Below, one piece after another: positions 11,697-47,716 of a stretch of DNA of 64,000 bases (within the stretch, counting starts at the first letter, position 1; each line of letters starts with the position of its first letter). Origin of the DNA: Larkinella soli. Lineage in GTDB: Bacteria > Bacteroidota > Bacteroidia > Cytophagales > Spirosomataceae. A program made the position numbers and the translations under genes. The notes under the pieces were generated by a model, which was not told the DNA's origin, made no database searches, and saw only the letters and a list, made by a program, of their open reading frames with translations. The stretch spans positions 1 through 64,000 of the forward strand of contig NZ_QTJY01000022.1 in NCBI RefSeq assembly GCF_003703975.1. Reading direction: 5' to 3'.

Positions 11697-12791
11697 ATGG
11701 AAACCCAGATCTTACTGATTGAAGATGAAATGCAGATCCGGGAAAACATTTCGGAACTGCTGACCTTGAATGGATTTCGGGTGGAAACTGCAGCCAACGG
11801 CCGGGACGGCATCAGCCAGGCGATGCTTCACCCTCCCGACCTCATCCTGTGCGACATCATGATGCCGGAAGTGGACGGCTACCAGGTTCTGGACGTCATT
11901 CGCGGCAACCGTTCGCTGGCCAATGTCCCTTTTATTTTCCTGACGGCCAAAACCGACGCCGTGAACCTGCGTCGGGGCATGGTGCTGGGGGCCGACGACT
12001 ACCTCACCAAACCGTTTACCTTCCAGGCCCTGCTGAATACGATTGAAAGCCGGATGAAACGGGAGTCGCAGCGGAAAGCCGACCTGCAGGCCCGGCTCGC
12101 CGAACAGCGCGGCACCATCGCGTCCATGGCGGCCCATGAATACAACACCTGCCTCAACGGCATCCTCGGTTTCTCGTCGCTGCTGATCGACCAGTATCAG
12201 GCGTTCAACGAGGAGGAACTGCTGTCGATGGTCGAAATGATCCGGGTGAGCGGAACGCGGCTGAAACGGTCGCTGGACAACATCCGGCTCATGGACGATC
12301 TGCAGCACCTCAACCCGGAAAGCCCGGCCTACGACTATTATGTCGGGGGCAGCAGCCTCATTTCGGCGGAGCTTTTTCCCAGGCTGGTGTCCCGCGTGGA
12401 ATACCGTCAGGGTCGGGAAATGTTGTACCGGTATGAGGTGGAAACCGCGCGGCTCCGGATTTCGGCCGACAACCTCGCCGTCTGTCTGGAAGAACTGGTG
12501 GACAATGCGGTGAAGTTTTCGGAACCGAACGGTCTGGTGCATCTGTCGGGGGTCGTGGAAGGGGAATGCTACCGCTTTACGGCCACCAATCAGGGACAGT
12601 CGTTTCAGACCGGCGACCTGGACCGGATCGCGCCCTACACCCAGTTCGACCGGAGCCGGTACGAGCAGCAGGGCTTCGGCCTGGGCCTCTCGATCCTGAA
12701 ACAGATTCTGAAGCTGAACGGGGGTAGCCTGAAAATCGAAAGCCGGGGCGACCGGACCGAGGTCTCGATCCGGCTTCCCGTCGCAGCCTGA
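11697..12791 (+). CDS. response regulator receiver fused to a histidine kinase (no sensor domain)
   Basis: A 364-residue protein. Residues 1-122 are a complete receiver (acidic pair Glu9-Asp10, phospho-acceptor Asp53 in LILCDIMMPE, Thr83, Lys105 in LTKPF). A short coiled linker leads to a kinase module with phospho-accepting His147 in an atypical H-box (AAHEYNTCLNGILG). The ATPase domain shows the N box (ELVDNAVKFSEPNG), a G box (GFGLGLSILKQIL) and a GGSLKIES end. It has no transmembrane or PAS segment, so it is probably a cytoplasmic relay whose kinase is controlled by its own receiver. It converges on the 12807-13559 gene, whose receiver is a close paralogue (81 of the first 122 residues identical by hand count, no gaps). 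Confidence 0.9.
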   Translation: METQILLIEDEMQIRENISELLTLNGFRVETAANGRDGISQAMLHPPDLILCDIMMPEVDGYQVLDVIRGNRSLANVPFIFLTAKTDAVNLRRGMVLGADDYLTKPFTFQALLNTIESRMKRESQRKADLQARLAEQRGTIASMAAHEYNTCLNGILGFSSLLIDQYQAFNEEELLSMVEMIRVSGTRLKRSLDNIRLMDDLQHLNPESPAYDYYVGGSSLISAELFPRLVSRVEYRQGREMLYRYEVETARLRISADNLAVCLEELVDNAVKFSEPNGLVHLSGVVEGECYRFTATNQGQSFQTGDLDRIAPYTQFDRSRYEQQGFGLGLSILKQILKLNGGSLKIESRGDRTEVSIRLPVAA

Positions 12792-12824
12792 ACCGTTTCG
12801 GGTCGCTCAGACCCGGGAGGCTGC
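12783..12824. terminator. nested hairpin between convergent signalling genes
   Basis: Outer arms GCAGCCT (12783-12789) and AGGCTGC (12818-12824) enclose an inner stem CGGGTC-GCTCA-GACCCG (12799-12815). The structure overlaps the last codons of both convergent genes (stops at 12791 and 12807), so it may end transcription in both directions. There is no long T run. Confidence 0.45.
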
Positions 12825-13559
12825 CCCGCCGGCCAGCCACTGTTTGAACGGACTGTATCGCGCCCTCGGCAGAATAGCCTGTTCGCCCATCGCCAGGAAC
12901 AGGCAATACTTCCCCTTTTCCCAATAGGCGTATTTCTGCACCATTTTCCGGTGCAGGATGACGTTCCGGTTGATTCTGAAAAACTGATTCGGATCGAGTA
13001 CGGCCGTCAGCCGCTCCAGCGTGAGATCGACCTGAAACGTTCCCAGCGGGTGACGGGCGAAATAGGCCCGGTTCTCCACGAAAAAATAATAACAATCATC
13101 GGCATTCAGGAGCGTACTGCCCCGGGTATCGCGGCCCCGGATCGTCCGGAGGTATTCCCGCTCGCAGGGGCCGGAACCATTCTGCTGCCGCAGCCGCTTC
13201 AGCCGGCTTTCGACGGCCATCAGCAGGTCGACGATGTGAAACGGTTTGGTAAGGTAGTCGTCGGCCCCCAGCACCATGCCCCGGCGAAGGTCCCTCATGT
13301 CGGCTTTGGCCGTCAGGAAGATAAAGGGGACATGGGCCAGAGCGGGGTCGTTCCGGATGTTTTCCAGGACGCCGTACCCGTCCATTTCGGGCAACATGAT
13401 GTCACAGAGAATCAGGTCCGGCGGATACCGGGATGCCAGGGCCACCCCGGCGGGGCCGTTCCCTGCCGTTTGTACTTCGTATCCATTCAGCTTCAGCAGT
13501 TCGGCAATATTCTCGCGGATTTGGTAAGAATCTTCAATCAATAAAATCCGGATCGGCAT
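12807..13559 (-). CDS. LytTR family response regulator
   Basis: A 250-residue regulator: a receiver (residues 1-122, phospho-acceptor Asp53 in LILCDIMLPE, Lys105 in LTKPF) followed by a LytTR DNA-binding domain (about 145-245, with DPNQFFRINRNVILHRKMVQ). LytTR proteins bind paired imperfect direct repeats upstream of their targets. The receiver is nearly superimposable on that of the convergent receiver-kinase, with very different outputs. No histidine kinase is adjacent in operon order, so the convergent receiver-kinase is the best partner candidate. The 150 bp upstream are AT-rich with two possible -7 boxes. Confidence 0.9.
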   Translation of the reverse strand: MPIRILLIEDSYQIRENIAELLKLNGYEVQTAGNGPAGVALASRYPPDLILCDIMLPEMDGYGVLENIRNDPALAHVPFIFLTAKADMRDLRRGMVLGADDYLTKPFHIVDLLMAVESRLKRLRQQNGSGPCEREYLRTIRGRDTRGSTLLNADDCYYFFVENRAYFARHPLGTFQVDLTLERLTAVLDPNQFFRINRNVILHRKMVQKYAYWEKGKYCLFLAMGEQAILPRARYSPFKQWLAGGAASRV

Positions 13560-13618
13560 TTCTTTTCAGGTACAGGGTTTGGCTTACGGAGGGTATGTAA
13601 AGTGGGTGGAAATGCGGG

Positions 13619-34053: not shown

Positions 34054-35319
34054 CTACTTGAAAAACAATTGGTTGACATTACTCAGCGCCAGTCCGAAAA
34101 TCACCAGCAGCCCTAGCCCGGCCGCTATTCGGGCGGCCGTCGAATTGACATACCGGCCCATGATCCGGGCGTCGTTGCCGATGGCGTACATGGCGACGCC
34201 GATAAACGGGACGACCAGAATCGTGACGCTCTGGGCAAAGATGATCAGTTGCAGCGGCAGCTTGCCGAAGATGATGGCGATGGACGCGCCGACCACCATC
34301 ACCAGGGCGATCAGCAGTTTGACGACCTTCGAGCTTAACTGGCTGCCGTAGCCGAGGGCCTCGCCCAGGAGCGTCCCGCCCACGGAGGCATTGCCCACCA
34401 GTGAGGAGAAAGAGGCCCCGAACAGGCCGAGCAGGAACAGACCGGAGGCATACGACCCGAAAATGGGTTCCAGCGCCCGGCCCATGTCCGACGCGCTGGC
34501 GACTTTCAGGCCCTTCGGATGCAGGACGGCGGCCGCGCAGATCAGCACCGTGGCGCTCATGAAACCCATCAGGGCCATGCCCGTCACGGTATCCACCCGC
34601 TGCTCGCGGACCTTCGGGTTGACCCGCACCCGCTCCTGTACCAGATAGGCCTGATAAAAAGCGCCCACAATGGAAAAACAGGAGGCCGTAAAGGCGATCA
34701 CCAGCCCCAGCGACCCCGTCGGGACCGAGGGGACGAAACCCGTCACCACGTCCGAATAATCGGGACCGGAGAGCGCCAGCGTCACCACGAACGCCACCAC
34801 CATTACCCCGATCAGCAGGATCATCAGCTGTTCCAGTACCCTGTAGAAAGTGCGGAAGAACAGCAGCCCGATGCCGAGGGCCGTAAACAGCACAATCCAG
34901 ACGTTGACCGGCGTGTGGGTGGCCTCGGCGATGGAGATGCCTACCCCGATGGAGTTGCCCGCCTGAAAGGAGGTCGCCACCAGGAAGACGCCCACGCCCA
35001 CCGCTACGGCTGCCGGGTTGCCCCACTTCTCCCGGATGGTCGCCAGCAGGGACTGCCGGGTCGCCAGCCCGATGCGGGAGGCCATCGCCGTAAAGACGGT
35101 CATGAAAAAGATGGCCATGACGATGATCCAGAGCAGGGCATAGCCGTATTCGGCCCCCATCTTGGAGGTGATCGTCATTTTGCTCGGCCCGAACACCAGG
35201 GCGGCCGTGATCAGGCTGGGGCCTAAGGAAGACCACCAGCCCCGGAAGGACCGGGCGGGCGTCCGGGCGACGGACGGAGAGGGCGTTTCAGCCGGGGAAT
35301 GCGGAGTTTTGGAAGGCAT
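34054..35319 (-). CDS. NRAMP-fold transporter with a non-canonical substrate site
   Basis: A 421-residue, roughly 11-helix membrane protein of the NRAMP family. The first helix aligns well with MntH-type transporters (LGPSLITAALVF, then GAEYGYALLW), but the metal-binding DPGN motif reads GPSK (residues 44-49, FGPSKM). Helix 6, which normally carries A-x-x-MPH, reads ASCFSIVGAFYQAYLV (212-227). So the Asp, Asn and Met metal ligands are all replaced, one of them by Lys. It is cotranscribed with a DUF4091 protein, an SDR-like protein, a DapA-like lyase and an enolase-superfamily enzyme. I infer an organic, probably anionic, substrate such as a sugar acid rather than Mn or Fe. Confidence 0.82.
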   Translation of the reverse strand: MPSKTPHSPAETPSPSVARTPARSFRGWWSSLGPSLITAALVFGPSKMTITSKMGAEYGYALLWIIVMAIFFMTVFTAMASRIGLATRQSLLATIREKWGNPAAVAVGVGVFLVATSFQAGNSIGVGISIAEATHTPVNVWIVLFTALGIGLLFFRTFYRVLEQLMILLIGVMVVAFVVTLALSGPDYSDVVTGFVPSVPTGSLGLVIAFTASCFSIVGAFYQAYLVQERVRVNPKVREQRVDTVTGMALMGFMSATVLICAAAVLHPKGLKVASASDMGRALEPIFGSYASGLFLLGLFGASFSSLVGNASVGGTLLGEALGYGSQLSSKVVKLLIALVMVVGASIAIIFGKLPLQLIIFAQSVTILVVPFIGVAMYAIGNDARIMGRYVNSTAARIAAGLGLLVIFGLALSNVNQLFFK

Positions 35320-35386: not shown

Positions 35387-37141
35387 TCACAGAGAGTTCA
35401 GCAGGGCTTTGGCAGGCATCAGCTGTGCGGCCGCCGGGGTGCCGGAGAGCTTCTCCACCTCAAAGGCATTCAGGGCTTTATCCAGCTGCGCGGCCTTGTC
35501 GGCCTGGCCTTTCTTCCCGAACTCATCCCGGAGGATTCGGATTTTTTCGTAATCCTGAATGCCTTCGATGAGCCGCTCGAACCGGACGGAAGTGCGCGGC
35601 CCCGGATAGACGATGTAGGTGTCCCCGGCCGGCCAGGTCCGAAAGCGCGAATCGCGGAGGGGATCTTTCACCCAGCAGTTGTAGGCCCAGCGCAGGTAAC
35701 CGTCGTAGCCTTTGTTGGCCGCAAACCAGCTGATCCAGGCGGCTTCGGCCGGGGGCGAAAAGGTGAAGGTGTTCGGATAGCGTTCGGAGCAGCAGGTGTA
35801 GTAGGTAGTATTGAACCCGGCCTGCCGCCGGCGCTGCATCGTGGGCGCATCGACCTCCTGGTTGGTGGCGACACAATAATCGATCAGATCGTTCTGTAAT
35901 TCAGGGTGATACAGCCCCGCCAGCGACAGCTTGAAGTCCTTGTCCACACTTTTGATCAGCGACAGAGCCTGCTGCATGGCTTCCATCGGCCGCTCGTCCA
36001 TGGCGATGGTGGTTTTTTCGAACCAGCCTTTCTCCTTCAGGTGCCGGGCAAAATCCGTCAGCATGGGCCGCCAGTGGGCCTCGTATTCGGGCGTGCCGGT
36101 TTTGGCGATGAGGAAGGTATCCTTCCGGGCGGCTTCGTCGTAGTAACTGAACTTCAGATTCCACGGAATCATGCTGTAACAGTTGATGAACCGGTCGATG
36201 CCGAGGTCCATCATGTAGGTCACCCAGCGGTCGAAAATCGTGTAGTCGAAGGCCCAGGTACCGTCCTTCTTTCGGGTCCACTGCACCATCGAGCCGTACA
36301 CGTCTTCGGTCTGGCTCCGCCAGGGGTCGTTGATGATGGTGGCGGTAATCGACTTCTGCCCGGCGTCGGCCAGCATTTTCATATAAGGCCGCATCAGCTC
36401 CATGTGTTCCGGCGACCATACCTTCACGCCATGCACCCGGGCCACCGAGTACGGGTTCTGCCATAGGTCCAGGTGAAACTTCCAGTCTTTGGGCGCGGGC
36501 AGCGTCCGGTTCAGCACCTCGACGGTGTAGGTCAGCTGCGCCGGCCGGCCCGAGGTTCCGGCGACGGAGACCGTCCCGGTGTAGGTTCCGGCCGGCGTGG
36601 CCGGAGGCACCGAAACGCTCAGCCAGACCGGCTGGGTGGTACGTTGCGGAATGTCCAGCACGCTCGTGAGATCGATGGGGTCGGCCACCAGCGAGGAGTC
36701 GTATTTGCCGGGGGGGCGCTGGTCGCAGCCCCCGCCGGTAGGCGGCAGGCCGTCCGTCATGACATACCGGACAAACCGGGCGGAGATGCTCCCGGCCGGA
36801 ATCGAATTGCCTTTGGCGTCTTTGGCGTCGGTCCAGCTCAGACGGGTTTGCGGCAGGGCCGACGCACTCCAGATCACCGCCTGGGTGTGGACCTTCTCCC
36901 CTTTCCAGGCTTTCGTCGTCCAGGTTTTCCTTAGGCTGGCCGAAACCGGGGCCGCGTGTTTCGCGTAGCGGACGTCGGCGGTGCCGAAACTGAGGTTCAG
37001 CCCCGGTTTCACCGATGCCCAGGCGGCCGCCGGAGCCGGTTTCGGGTCGGGCAGTTCCTGATACCGGGTCAGGTCCACCGGCTGGGCAAAGGCCCCGGCG
37101 GCAGACAGGCAAAGGGTAAGGGCAAGCCAGTACTTCCTCAT
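35387..37141 (-). CDS. DUF4091 glycoside-hydrolase-like exported protein
   Basis: A 584-residue exported protein (signal peptide MRKYWLALTLCLSAAGAFA). The frame is open 21 codons further upstream but only this ATG gives the signal. The N-terminal half is a beta domain; the C-terminal half is a TIM-barrel-like DUF4091 region. It has FHLDLWQNPY, a KEKGWFEKTTIAMDERP block with an Asp-Glu pair that could be catalytic, and ending strands with SVRFERLIEGIQDYE. DUF4091 is related to family GH123 (N-acetylgalactosaminidase-like, substrate-assisted). As first gene of the five-gene operon it probably frees the sugar later handled by the lyase and enolase-family enzymes. Confidence 0.82.
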   Translation of the reverse strand: MRKYWLALTLCLSAAGAFAQPVDLTRYQELPDPKPAPAAAWASVKPGLNLSFGTADVRYAKHAAPVSASLRKTWTTKAWKGEKVHTQAVIWSASALPQTRLSWTDAKDAKGNSIPAGSISARFVRYVMTDGLPPTGGGCDQRPPGKYDSSLVADPIDLTSVLDIPQRTTQPVWLSVSVPPATPAGTYTGTVSVAGTSGRPAQLTYTVEVLNRTLPAPKDWKFHLDLWQNPYSVARVHGVKVWSPEHMELMRPYMKMLADAGQKSITATIINDPWRSQTEDVYGSMVQWTRKKDGTWAFDYTIFDRWVTYMMDLGIDRFINCYSMIPWNLKFSYYDEAARKDTFLIAKTGTPEYEAHWRPMLTDFARHLKEKGWFEKTTIAMDERPMEAMQQALSLIKSVDKDFKLSLAGLYHPELQNDLIDYCVATNQEVDAPTMQRRRQAGFNTTYYTCCSERYPNTFTFSPPAEAAWISWFAANKGYDGYLRWAYNCWVKDPLRDSRFRTWPAGDTYIVYPGPRTSVRFERLIEGIQDYEKIRILRDEFGKKGQADKAAQLDKALNAFEVEKLSGTPAAAQLMPAKALLNSL

Positions 37142-37834
37142 CGAAGAAAAGATTAAAGGTCGGGTTGGGAATCGAATGATCATTTTCAATTTCAATATGG
37201 CCAAAATAATTGAACCAAAGACACCGCCCGGTCGGGAAAGTACCCGATGGGGGCAGCTGACTACCTCTCTCCCGGCGACACGCAGCCGTCGTCCAGGCGG
37301 CCGAAGCGCTCCGAAAAATGAATCTGCTCCTCCACGACCTTATCCTGACCGGGTTTTCAGATTATGCCATGCCCAATTTCCTCGGCCCGTTCGGGGGATT
37401 TGGTGATCCTAAAGAGGTAGTTTGGGGAAGCGTTCATCCTGAAGAAAGAGGGACTCCAGACCACCCCCCGGCCCCCTCCTTGCTAAGGAGGGGGAGAGCT
37501 CTGCCCGATTCAAACTCTGCGGAGCCACCCCCTCTTTACAAAGGAGGGGTCGGACCGGCGCTCCGGCAGGGGGGTGGTCAGCGGGAGGGCAAACCGGTCG
37601 GGAAAGCACCTTTTCCCTTCCCCAAACGACCTCTTTTTAGAGGTAAAGGCCCGGATGCCGGTGATGATGACTGAAACGGGCAGCCAACGCTTTCTCGTCC
37701 CGCAGCGAAACACACCGCAAAACGTCGTTTTCCTGAGGCAGGGCAGATGAATAAGACCTGATTCGTGAATAACTACCGGTGCCGCTTTCCGGTTAAAGAT
37801 AAACCGGCCGCCGTGAGTTTAGAATTTTCGATTT
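37142..37834. other. intergenic region containing repeat copy 2, no gene seen
   Basis: This 693-bp gap separates two divergent genes. It contains the nested palindromic repeat at 37411-37636 and a promoter-like AT-rich stretch just upstream of the DUF4091 gene (37175-37215, with a near-match -7 box TTATTTTG on the minus strand). The short frames across the repeat are low-complexity Pro/Gly/Arg products of the palindrome and are not genes. Confidence 0.5.
37411..37636. repeat. nested palindromic interspersed repeat, copy 2 (REPIN/MITE-like)
   Basis: Outer arms at 37411-37430 and 37617-37636 are inverted complements with one mismatch in 20. Inside are ACCACCCCCC and GGGGGGTGGT arms and two hairpins, the first a perfect 10-bp stem CCCCCTCCTT-GCT-AAGGAGGGGG (37472-37494). 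The left 80 bp match copy 1 at 21212 with only a few changes; the right half and loop differ. No transposase is nearby, so the element must be moved in trans if it is mobile. Confidence 0.85.
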
Positions 37835-46483: not shown

Positions 46484-47716
46484 TTACTTCTTTCCGATCC
46501 GGTACAGGCGGCCCTGGTCGGTCACGGCATACAGGGCGCCGTCCGTCCCCTGGGTGATGTCGCGGAAACGCTGGTTCTCACCGGCCAGCAGCCGCTCTTC
46601 GCCCACGACCCGGTTGTTCTCGATCACCAGCCGGATCACGTGCATCCCGCTCAGGGCGCCGACGAACAGGTTGTTTTTCCATTCCGGAATCTGATTACCG
46701 GTATAAAACGTCATGCCGCTCGGCGAAATGGAGGGATCCCAGTAATATACCGGCTGCTCAAAGCCCTCCTTCTGCTGAATGCCCTCCCCGACTTTCGGGC
46801 CGGCATATTCGATCCCGTAGGTGATGGTCGGCCAGCCGTAGTTCTTCCCGGCTTCGATGCGGTTCAGTTCGTCGCCACCACGCGGTCCGAATTCGTTTTC
46901 CCAGAGGTCGCCGGTAACCGGGTGGATCGCCAGCCCCTGCACGTTCCGGTGGCCGTAGGAATACAGCTCCGGCCGGGCGCCGGATTTACCTTCAAACGGA
47001 TTGCCGGCCACGGGTTTGCCGTCGGTCGTGATCCGGACCACCTTCCCGAGGGCGGCATTGAGGTCCTGGGCTTTCGGGCGGGTTACCAGATCGGAGCGCT
47101 CGCCGGTGCTGATGATCAGGTTGTTGTTGCGGTCGAACAGGATACGGCCGCCGTAATGCAGCGTTCCCTTATAGGCCGGGGCGGCCCGGTAGATGACGGT
47201 GGCTCCCTCGATCTTCTTTTCGTCGGCCGAAAGCTTCCCCTTCGCCACTGCCGTCAGGTTGCCTTCGGCCAGCGGCTCGGAGAATACCCAGTATACCATC
47301 CGGTTCTGGGCAAACGCCGGGTCGACCCGGACGCCGAGCAGACCGCCCTGCCCGTTGGCATTGACGGTCGGAAGGCCCGTGATGTTACCGCTGACCTTGC
47401 CGTCCGCCGACACGATCTTCAGGGTGCCTTCCTTCTGGGTAATCAGGAAGCGGCCGTCGGGCAGGGTGGTGATGCCCCAGGGGCTGTTCAGGTCGGAGGT
47501 CAGCACCTTGCCTTCGTAGGGCGTGGAGGATTTCACACTCCGGACGCGGGTCTGACCGGAAAAAGCCGGTTTATAGGCGGAATTGGCCGCCTTCGTCTCG
47601 ACCGGCGCCCCCGTACTGTCGGCGGAAGTCACTTCGGTGTTGTCGTTGAATGTTTTGCCGCAGGAGGTCAGGCTGATCATGGTGCCTGACACAAGAATCA
47701 AAAGTTCTTTAGTCAT
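46484..47716 (-). CDS. PQQ-dependent sugar dehydrogenase (glucose/sorbosone dehydrogenase family) lipoprotein
   Basis: A 410-residue protein. ATG at 47716 is chosen because it gives a lipoprotein signal (MTKELLILVSGTMISLTSC, lipid Cys19); an earlier start at 47758 only adds residues. The mature part is a six-bladed propeller of the soluble glucose dehydrogenase/Hip-like family: LNSPWGITTLPDGRFLITQK, GQGGLLGVRVDPAF, YSYGHRNVQGLAI and PSGMTFYTG are typical. It would oxidise an aldose at its C1 with bound PQQ and pass electrons on in the periplasm. I see no PQQ synthesis genes in the window. Family members can also be non-enzymatic. Confidence 0.88.
   Translation of the reverse strand: MTKELLILVSGTMISLTSCGKTFNDNTEVTSADSTGAPVETKAANSAYKPAFSGQTRVRSVKSSTPYEGKVLTSDLNSPWGITTLPDGRFLITQKEGTLKIVSADGKVSGNITGLPTVNANGQGGLLGVRVDPAFAQNRMVYWVFSEPLAEGNLTAVAKGKLSADEKKIEGATVIYRAAPAYKGTLHYGGRILFDRNNNLIISTGERSDLVTRPKAQDLNAALGKVVRITTDGKPVAGNPFEGKSGARPELYSYGHRNVQGLAIHPVTGDLWENEFGPRGGDELNRIEAGKNYGWPTITYGIEYAGPKVGEGIQQKEGFEQPVYYWDPSISPSGMTFYTGNQIPEWKNNLFVGALSGMHVIRLVIENNRVVGEERLLAGENQRFRDITQGTDGALYAVTDQGRLYRIGKK

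Follow-up and report, generated by a model that had tools for sequence, protein, structure and literature searches.

Proteins of the NRAMP superfamily are known as metal transporters, and a member that lacks the residues holding the metal raises the question of what it carries instead. We addressed this question for a gene of Larkinella soli that lies in a row of same-strand genes for carbohydrate-type enzymes, within a 64,000-nucleotide stretch of DNA that was analyzed as a whole (termed the window). An earlier note on this DNA had placed the gene at 34054..35319; these coordinates are correct, and the gene runs on the minus strand (Table 1).

Table 1. Features of the carrier locus in the window, in order of position.
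Feature	Position	Strand	Remarks
Enolase-superfamily (MR_MLE_C, PF13378, 50 bits) dehydratase/cycloisomerase-like, 433 aa	30628..31929	minus	
DHDPS/N-acetylneuraminate-lyase-type aldolase, 357 aa	31939..33012	minus	17.3 bits, below the Pfam cut-off of 22.1
SDR-like, NAD-dependent epimerase/dehydratase (PF01370, 29 bits), 338 aa	33019..34035	minus	
Nramp-related (PF01566) carrier, GPSK clade	34054..35319	minus	421 aa, ATG start, full open frame
Codons of S216-I217-V218 (place of MPH, helix 6)	34666..34674	minus	From alignments; coordinates from residue numbers
Codons of G44-P45-S46-K47 (place of DPGN, helix 1)	35179..35190	minus	From alignments; coordinates from residue numbers
GH123 glycosidase, upstream	35387..37204	minus	ORF bounds, start codon not fixed

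The encoded protein, hereafter the carrier, matches the PF01566 profile with 242 bits over residues 52-393 (cut-off 29.8) and thus belongs to the NRAMP superfamily. It passes the NF037982 model, named 'Nramp family divalent metal transporter', with 98 bits against a cut-off of 50, and fails both the curated MntH model (121 bits, cut-off 430) and TIGR01197 (nramp; 47 bits, cut-off 272.5). The Larkinella genome holds three PF01566 genes, namely the carrier, a DPGN-bearing MntH on another contig, which at 649 bits (MntH) and 415 bits (TIGR01197) is above both cut-offs, and a third gene on contig C1 (locus L158). A good AlphaFold2 model of the carrier, built from an 18-row alignment (pLDDT 83.7, pTM 0.83), has the NRAMP fold, with helix 1 broken between residues 42 and 45, at 43-44, and helix 6 at residue 216, which is the place of the NRAMP substrate site. 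The best PDB match of this model in Foldseek was DraNramp (6d91, TM 0.82/0.87); EleNRMT gave TM 0.80/0.84, and an integrative model of Bacillus subtilis YcsG 0.76/0.79 at 16% identity. The NRAMP fold named in the earlier note is thus borne out by the profile score, the two broken helices and the DraNramp match. A pseudogene or frameshift was ruled out by the full open frame and the clade-wide conservation of the protein.

To compare the substrate site, we used a phmmer alignment to DraNramp together with larger family alignments. The Asp and Asn of DPGN are Gly and Lys in the carrier, as had been observed, and the sequence is conserved on both flanks of the motif. In helix 6, where VGA had been read in place of MPH, the Met and His are indeed absent, but MPH aligns with SIV, and VGA (218-220) is shifted by two residues. 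In the phmmer alignment Asn122 stands opposite E134, the Glu in TM3 of DraNramp, and Asn occupies this place in 42/42 clade rows (the window counted twice). Of the canonical metal ligands that were compared, the carrier retains none. Chance or a sequencing fault was ruled out, since GPSK occurs in 25 distinct full-length proteins, and those included in the trees form one clade.

The helix-1 Asp is absent from 82 of the 119 rows of a PF01566 alignment whose sampling is uneven and favors relatives of the window protein; the Asp-less rows comprise 49 GPG[ST], 24 GPSK and 9 others, and the rest are 27 DPGN and 10 DPSG or DAGG rows. In the main tree (IQ-TREE, 57 rows, bootstrap/SH-aLRT, unrooted), which leaves out the long-branched rows and some near copies of a quick 75-row tree, the GPSK proteins form a clade with 100/100 support (11 rows; 12 in the quick tree). 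This clade joins the GPGS proteins in an operon clade (100/99, 19 rows), and a wider clade adds L007 and two haloarchaeal proteins (100/100, 22 rows). The other clades are supported at 99/97 (GPGT), 100/99 (DxxG), 100/100 (DPGN) and, for DPGN and DxxG jointly, 94/91; the quick tree recovers the same groups. GPGT falls with DPGN and DxxG at the midpoint drawing, and the tree, being unrooted, gives no sisterhood of GPGT to the operon clade.

In both trees the carrier falls outside the DPGN and DxxG clades. Canonical MntH identity is ruled out by the site (GPSK, SIV), the position outside the DPGN clade and the curated scores, so the carrier is not a canonical metal transporter; the earlier doubt of that label holds, given the absent ligands, the place in the tree and 121 instead of 430 bits. 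NRMT identity was also ruled out, because the carrier is without a DxxG and TxxA/T site, the motif given for NRMT in a passage of PMC8806188 (DxxG-TxxA/T), and lies outside the NRMT clade. Three further Asp-less proteins (L008, L078 and L038) pass NF037982 together with the window protein, so that its name is given to part of the Asp-less proteins as well; P0003 and P0004, both GPGF, fail it at 47 and 28 bits. For the carrier, 'divalent metal transporter' is best read as annotation carry-over.

The earlier note described the motif as DPGN changed to GPSK. According to excerpts of the BfraNramp preprint, its rooted tree has Nramp-related proteins, without DPGN and MPH, as paraphyletic and basal to canonical Nramps (PMC12873925). 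With the Asp absent from 82/119 rows and from these basal groups, that description probably has the change the wrong way round, and the carrier lineage probably never had DPGN. Recent loss of DPGN in one organism was rejected because the Gly is clade-wide. The Lys looks derived, a single gain being the simplest reading of the aligned residues, since Ser or Thr stands at its place in relatives beyond the GPSK clade. GPSK is held by records of Larkinella, Spirosoma, Segetibacter and Chitinophagaceae, and GPGS by records of Zobellia, Arenibacter, Maribacter, Ulvibacterium and Cerina and by three genomes of the window's own family.

The genes of Table 1 are closely packed on one strand, with gaps of 67 bp between GH123 and the carrier, 18 bp to the SDR, 6 bp to the DHDPS-like aldolase and 9 bp to the enolase-like gene. 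We assessed the conservation of this order over 38 distinct full-length clade proteins (25 GPSK and 13 GPGS), all neighborhood counts given here and below being raw, irrespective of kinship, and leaving out two truncated copies from genome G409, which lie at contig ends in a genome without an aldolase match. An SDR gene directly follows the carrier in 37/38, and the aldolase gene comes next in 36/38, of which 35 were found by script; in the other, L032, the aldolase is an over-long ORF outside the script's overlap limit, yet directly behind the SDR. The exceptions are L040, which has neither SDR nor aldolase, and L041, where the contig ends. GPSK homologues outside such operons were sought, and none of the 25 full-length GPSK proteins was without an SDR behind it. 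The tie between the carrier and enzymes of carbohydrate or organic-acid type is thus very tight.

The carrier and the aldolase also occur together across genomes. Among 150 genomes of the family, 25 have the carrier, 26 the aldolase and 24 both (thresholds 1e-40 and 1e-45), with the carrier alone in G409 and the aldolase alone in G449 and G462. Among 395 genomes of the phylum the numbers are 5, 6 and 5 (thresholds 1e-30 and 1e-45), the extra aldolase being that of G014 at 35% identity; in the distant G171 the two genes lie on different contigs. The presence of SDR and aldolase without the carrier in G449 and G462 indicates that the carrier is not indispensable to these enzymes, and reading by eye found no other transporter among the ORFs adjoining the carrier-less SDR-aldolase loci (G449, G462 and G171:C71).

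Further neighbors are less constant. An enolase-like gene is found in 7 rows, the window included, many loci having short flanks, and GH123 lies near the carrier in the window, L030, L033 and L101, with SusC/SusD-type genes between the two in L030. Within 8 kb of the carrier, GSDH genes occur at 7, M20 genes at 7 and Gfo/Idh/MocA genes at 13 of 34 raw loci, counted irrespective of kinship and including the two truncated G409 copies. With 42 Gfo/Idh and 21 GSDH Pfam matches over the 6.92 Mb of the genome, about 3.6 and 1.8 of the 34 loci would be expected to have such a gene, where 13 and 7 do, although the loci lack independence, flanks can be shorter than 8 kb and the two counts come from different models. 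These associations, in a minority of loci, are suggestive. At L084 the carrier ORF and that of a GSDH-cytochrome c protein share 11 bp. In the window, the surroundings of the carrier up to 8 kb contain no match to GSDH, Gfo/Idh, M20, NagB, GH20 or the MFS seed. A GSDH match on the minus strand at 46499-47491, 11 kb away, is the best of the 21 in the genome (435.6 bits). The Arenibacter loci L040 and L044 share flanking clusters, L040 being without SDR and aldolase between the carrier and the Gfo/Idh gene.

In the earlier note, all operon partners were called sugar-acid-type enzymes. This stands at the level of folds, but the SDR and the aldolase are remote members of their families (29 and 17 bits) and the upstream neighbor is a GH123 glycosidase. 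The Schiff-base Lys180 of the aldolase, aligned to the Lys of N-acetylneuraminate lyase (NAL), is present in 32/32 rows, in keeping with the DHDPS/NAL family, and Tyr152 in 31/32. The best PDB sequence match is N-acetylneuraminate lyase, and all 50 fold matches listed are of DHDPS/NAL type; the AlphaFold model, being of low quality (pLDDT 63, Foldseek TM about 0.4-0.5, rmsd 16-18), only backs the family. HTTQF stands in place of the GxTGE-type motif. The SDR has GxGGKxGP, and in 38/39 rows Cys replaces the catalytic Lys of YxxxK (EYxQSCLGRER), with Ile in the remaining row; a conserved NVIWQGDANE stretch also marks an unusual SDR branch. With no canonical Lys in the SDR and HTTQF in the aldolase, the reactions of the two enzymes are putative. 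The enolase-like protein has the KxK, DxN, EEP and DES motifs in 7/7 rows. One aldolase match, G510:C1:5801679-5802695, contains a single in-frame TAG.

The oxidative uronate pathway uses a Udh of the SDR type, a galactarolactone cycloisomerase and KdgD of the DHDPS type. The operon draws on the same three enzyme superfamilies, but its sequences are remote from these and the SDR active site is altered, and we do not claim orthology.

Relatives outside the operon clade were compared by their own neighbors. Among the next of kin to the operon clade, L007/L082 has a Gfo/Idh/MocA gene 0.7 kb downstream, and the haloarchaeal proteins L078 (38.5% identity) and L079 (34.8%) adjoin Gfo/Idh/MocA genes; L078 is also near heparinase II/III and sulfatase-like genes. 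In the GPGT clade, which is Asp-less as well, oxoprolinase-type genes lie within 1.5 kb in 28 of 36 cases, PxpA in 21 and HyuA (hydantoinase/oxoprolinase) in 7, with neither in 8. These GPGT proteins came from a similarity or a family search rather than through their neighbors, and a single family (f22) supplies 15 of the 21 rows with PxpA, which are therefore not independent. By the same count, made with flanks of 1.5 kb at most loci and with motif classes assigned by pattern, PxpA or HyuA was found in 0/26 DPGN, 0/11 DxxG, 0/25 GPSK (two truncated), 0/16 GPGS, 0/5 GVSH and 0/5 other loci, and in 3/3 GPGF loci, two of which had been fetched because of PxpA.

The pxp system was reportedly the subject of a study by Niehaus et al. 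in 2017. Excerpts from PMC13274462 describe Corynebacterium glutamicum pxpT, an NRAMP-family gene whose product is 50% identical to YcsG, as needed for growth on 5-oxoproline and able to complement; in the same excerpts the authors do not exclude metal. The YcsG operon serves 5-oxoproline, and YcsG was reported, in a passage of PMC10448178, to be a Mn importer and renamed MntG; the BfraNramp preprint, in part, places YcsG/MntG in a 'G-motif' group (PMC12873925). An organic-acid operon therefore does not exclude metal, and organic-acid function in the NRAMP superfamily has, on these partial sources, a precedent that is disputed. The carrier resembles PxpT and YcsG, by published description rather than by sequence, in being an NRAMP-family protein encoded with organic-acid catabolic genes, and the proteins L168, L171 and L151 at pxp operons lack the helix-1 Asp too (GPGF). 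It differs in its partners, which for PxpT and YcsG are pxpABC, an oxoprolinase gene accompanying none of the 25 GPSK rows.

Other known proteins share parts of this picture. EleNRMT, a Mg2+ transporter, has the same fold and is the best PDB sequence match of the carrier, but has DAGG in helix 1, APW in helix 6 and a clade of its own, and DraNramp/MntH, of the same fold and structurally the closest, has the DPGN and MPH ligands that the carrier lacks. The 'G-motif' groups of PMC12873925 and the Slc11 outgroup of Cellier (PMC9606685) are likewise described, in excerpts, as PF01566 proteins without the canonical site, and the GPSK clade presumably belongs among such Nramp-related groups, which in those excerpts are entirely uncharacterized except for the NRMT-like and 'G-motif 3' groups (PMC12873925). 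The passages available from these two papers name neither a GPSK clade nor this operon nor an organic substrate. A figure legend in PMC6431674 lists a 'Nramp, metal-ion transporter' among the genes of Alteromonas alginolytic systems. A search of the open-licence literature by title or abstract found no paper on a GPSK Nramp or such an operon.

On balance, these observations favor, by a modest degree of confidence, a carrier that imports a small organic acid. The reading draws on the conservation of the operon, the co-occurrence of carrier and aldolase, the GSDH-type and Gfo/Idh/MocA genes near part of the loci, the Gfo/Idh/MocA genes beside kin, the fold matches of the aldolase and the oxoprolinase genes beside GPGT proteins, the role published for pxpT (in part, PMC13274462) and the separate MntH of the genome. 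In the mechanism that we propose, a protein of LeuT-type NRAMP fold without the metal site would import, rather than export, the acid, whose breakdown would then fall to the three downstream gene products (SDR, type-I aldolase and enolase-like protein). The cargo would then probably be an oxidized sugar, aldonate- or keto-deoxy-aldonate-like and possibly derived from an amino sugar; taken as a claim in its own right, a sugar acid in particular has somewhat less than an even chance. Lys47 might pair, for example, with the substrate carboxylate at the place where Asp and Asn hold the metal in MntH.

Several readings compete with import of a sugar acid. An importer of divalent metal (Mg2+/Mn2+) whose site has been rebuilt, and which would provide the enolase-like enzyme with its metal, would suit the superfamily and a fold common to MntH and the Mg transporter EleNRMT. 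In a passage of PMC8806188, EcoDMT still carried Mn after three residues of its site, other than the Asp, had been replaced by their NRMT counterparts, and the report on YcsG/MntG as a Mn importer (PMC10448178, in part) points the same way. We nonetheless regard this reading as unlikely, since Gly, Lys, Ser and Val occupy the places of the Asp, Asn and Met ligands and of the helix-6 His, the enolase-like gene is confined to those seven rows (many loci, again, with short flanks) and the genome has its own MntH. The Pfam-scanned neighbors also include no metal regulator, whereas mntR and a metal-dependent regulator lie beside the DPGN loci L132 and L138. A cyclic amide or carboxylate resembling 5-oxoproline, such as PxpT-like relatives are thought to carry, is suggested by the oxoprolinase-type genes of 28/36 GPGT relatives and appears very improbable for the carrier, with no PxpA or HyuA at GPSK (0/25, two truncated) or GPGS (0/16) loci and an SDR and an aldolase as partners instead.

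The Lys itself bears on a third alternative. In some LeuT-fold carriers of amino acids and carnitine, such as ApcT and CaiT, a Lys or Arg replaces the coupling ion. By analogy, Lys47 might be a built-in cation of this kind and not an anion ligand, in an importer of a neutral or zwitterionic sugar derivative. This would agree with the rise of the Lys within a clade whose operon is unchanged and with the lack of a fixed acidic residue arriving with it: over 26 GPSK rows (window twice) and 13 GPGS rows, the two groups differ at only six positions that are conserved to at least 85% in each (46, 47, 232, 254, 296 and 407), and at none of these does an acidic residue accompany the Lys. With a looser criterion, GPSK proteins are richer in acids at just two places, 190 (50% of rows) and 417 (62%), so that an uncompensated positive charge at Lys47 is possible from the alignment. 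As those carriers have the basic residue at a Na2-like site and not at the substrate position of helix 1, we judge the built-in cation quite improbable.

The Lys had been taken earlier to suggest an anion. It argues for one only faintly, since GPGS orthologues with Ser have the same SDR-aldolase pair in 11/12 testable cases; because they share the operon, the Lys is neither needed for the operon link nor explains it, and it is a clade-specific refinement rather than the basis of that link. The earlier note thus stands in its doubt of the metal label and, for the most part, in its operon; it is weak where it takes DPGN to have changed into GPSK and the Lys to speak for an anion.

If an organic acid is indeed imported, a branch of a family known as metal transporters would feed carbon catabolism, and genes named 'Nramp family divalent metal transporter' would be partly misnamed, NF037982 passing four Asp-less proteins with that of the window. 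The operon is small and testable, and it offers a way to ask how the metal site of NRAMP proteins would have evolved from an APC-superfamily ancestor with an organic substrate. A bolder proposal, which we offer tentatively and hold to be rather doubtful, is that the Asp-less side of the NRAMP superfamily consists largely of organic-acid carriers (5-oxoproline, sugar acids), that metal transport came later with Asp and Asn/Gly in helix 1, and that in the GPSK clade the fold would have its first importer dedicated to sugar acids, in which Lys47 binds the carboxylate at the place of Mn2+ in MntH.

Three further PF01566 proteins or groups were observed. L082 encodes, at 11837-13564, a divergent Nramp-like protein (GGGS, 46 bits to PF01566) behind the Gfo/Idh/MocA gene and about 2 kb from the GPGS carrier. 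The third PF01566 gene of the Larkinella genome (L158, G000:C1:206500-216000) has GPGSV in helix 1 and VPYN in helix 6, and groups with the GPGT proteins; its neighbors include a HyuA-type gene less than 1.5 kb away and, by eye, a cyclase-like gene. In Bacteroidota, L152-L156 form a long-branched group with GVSH in helix 1 and WMPxPxD in helix 6.
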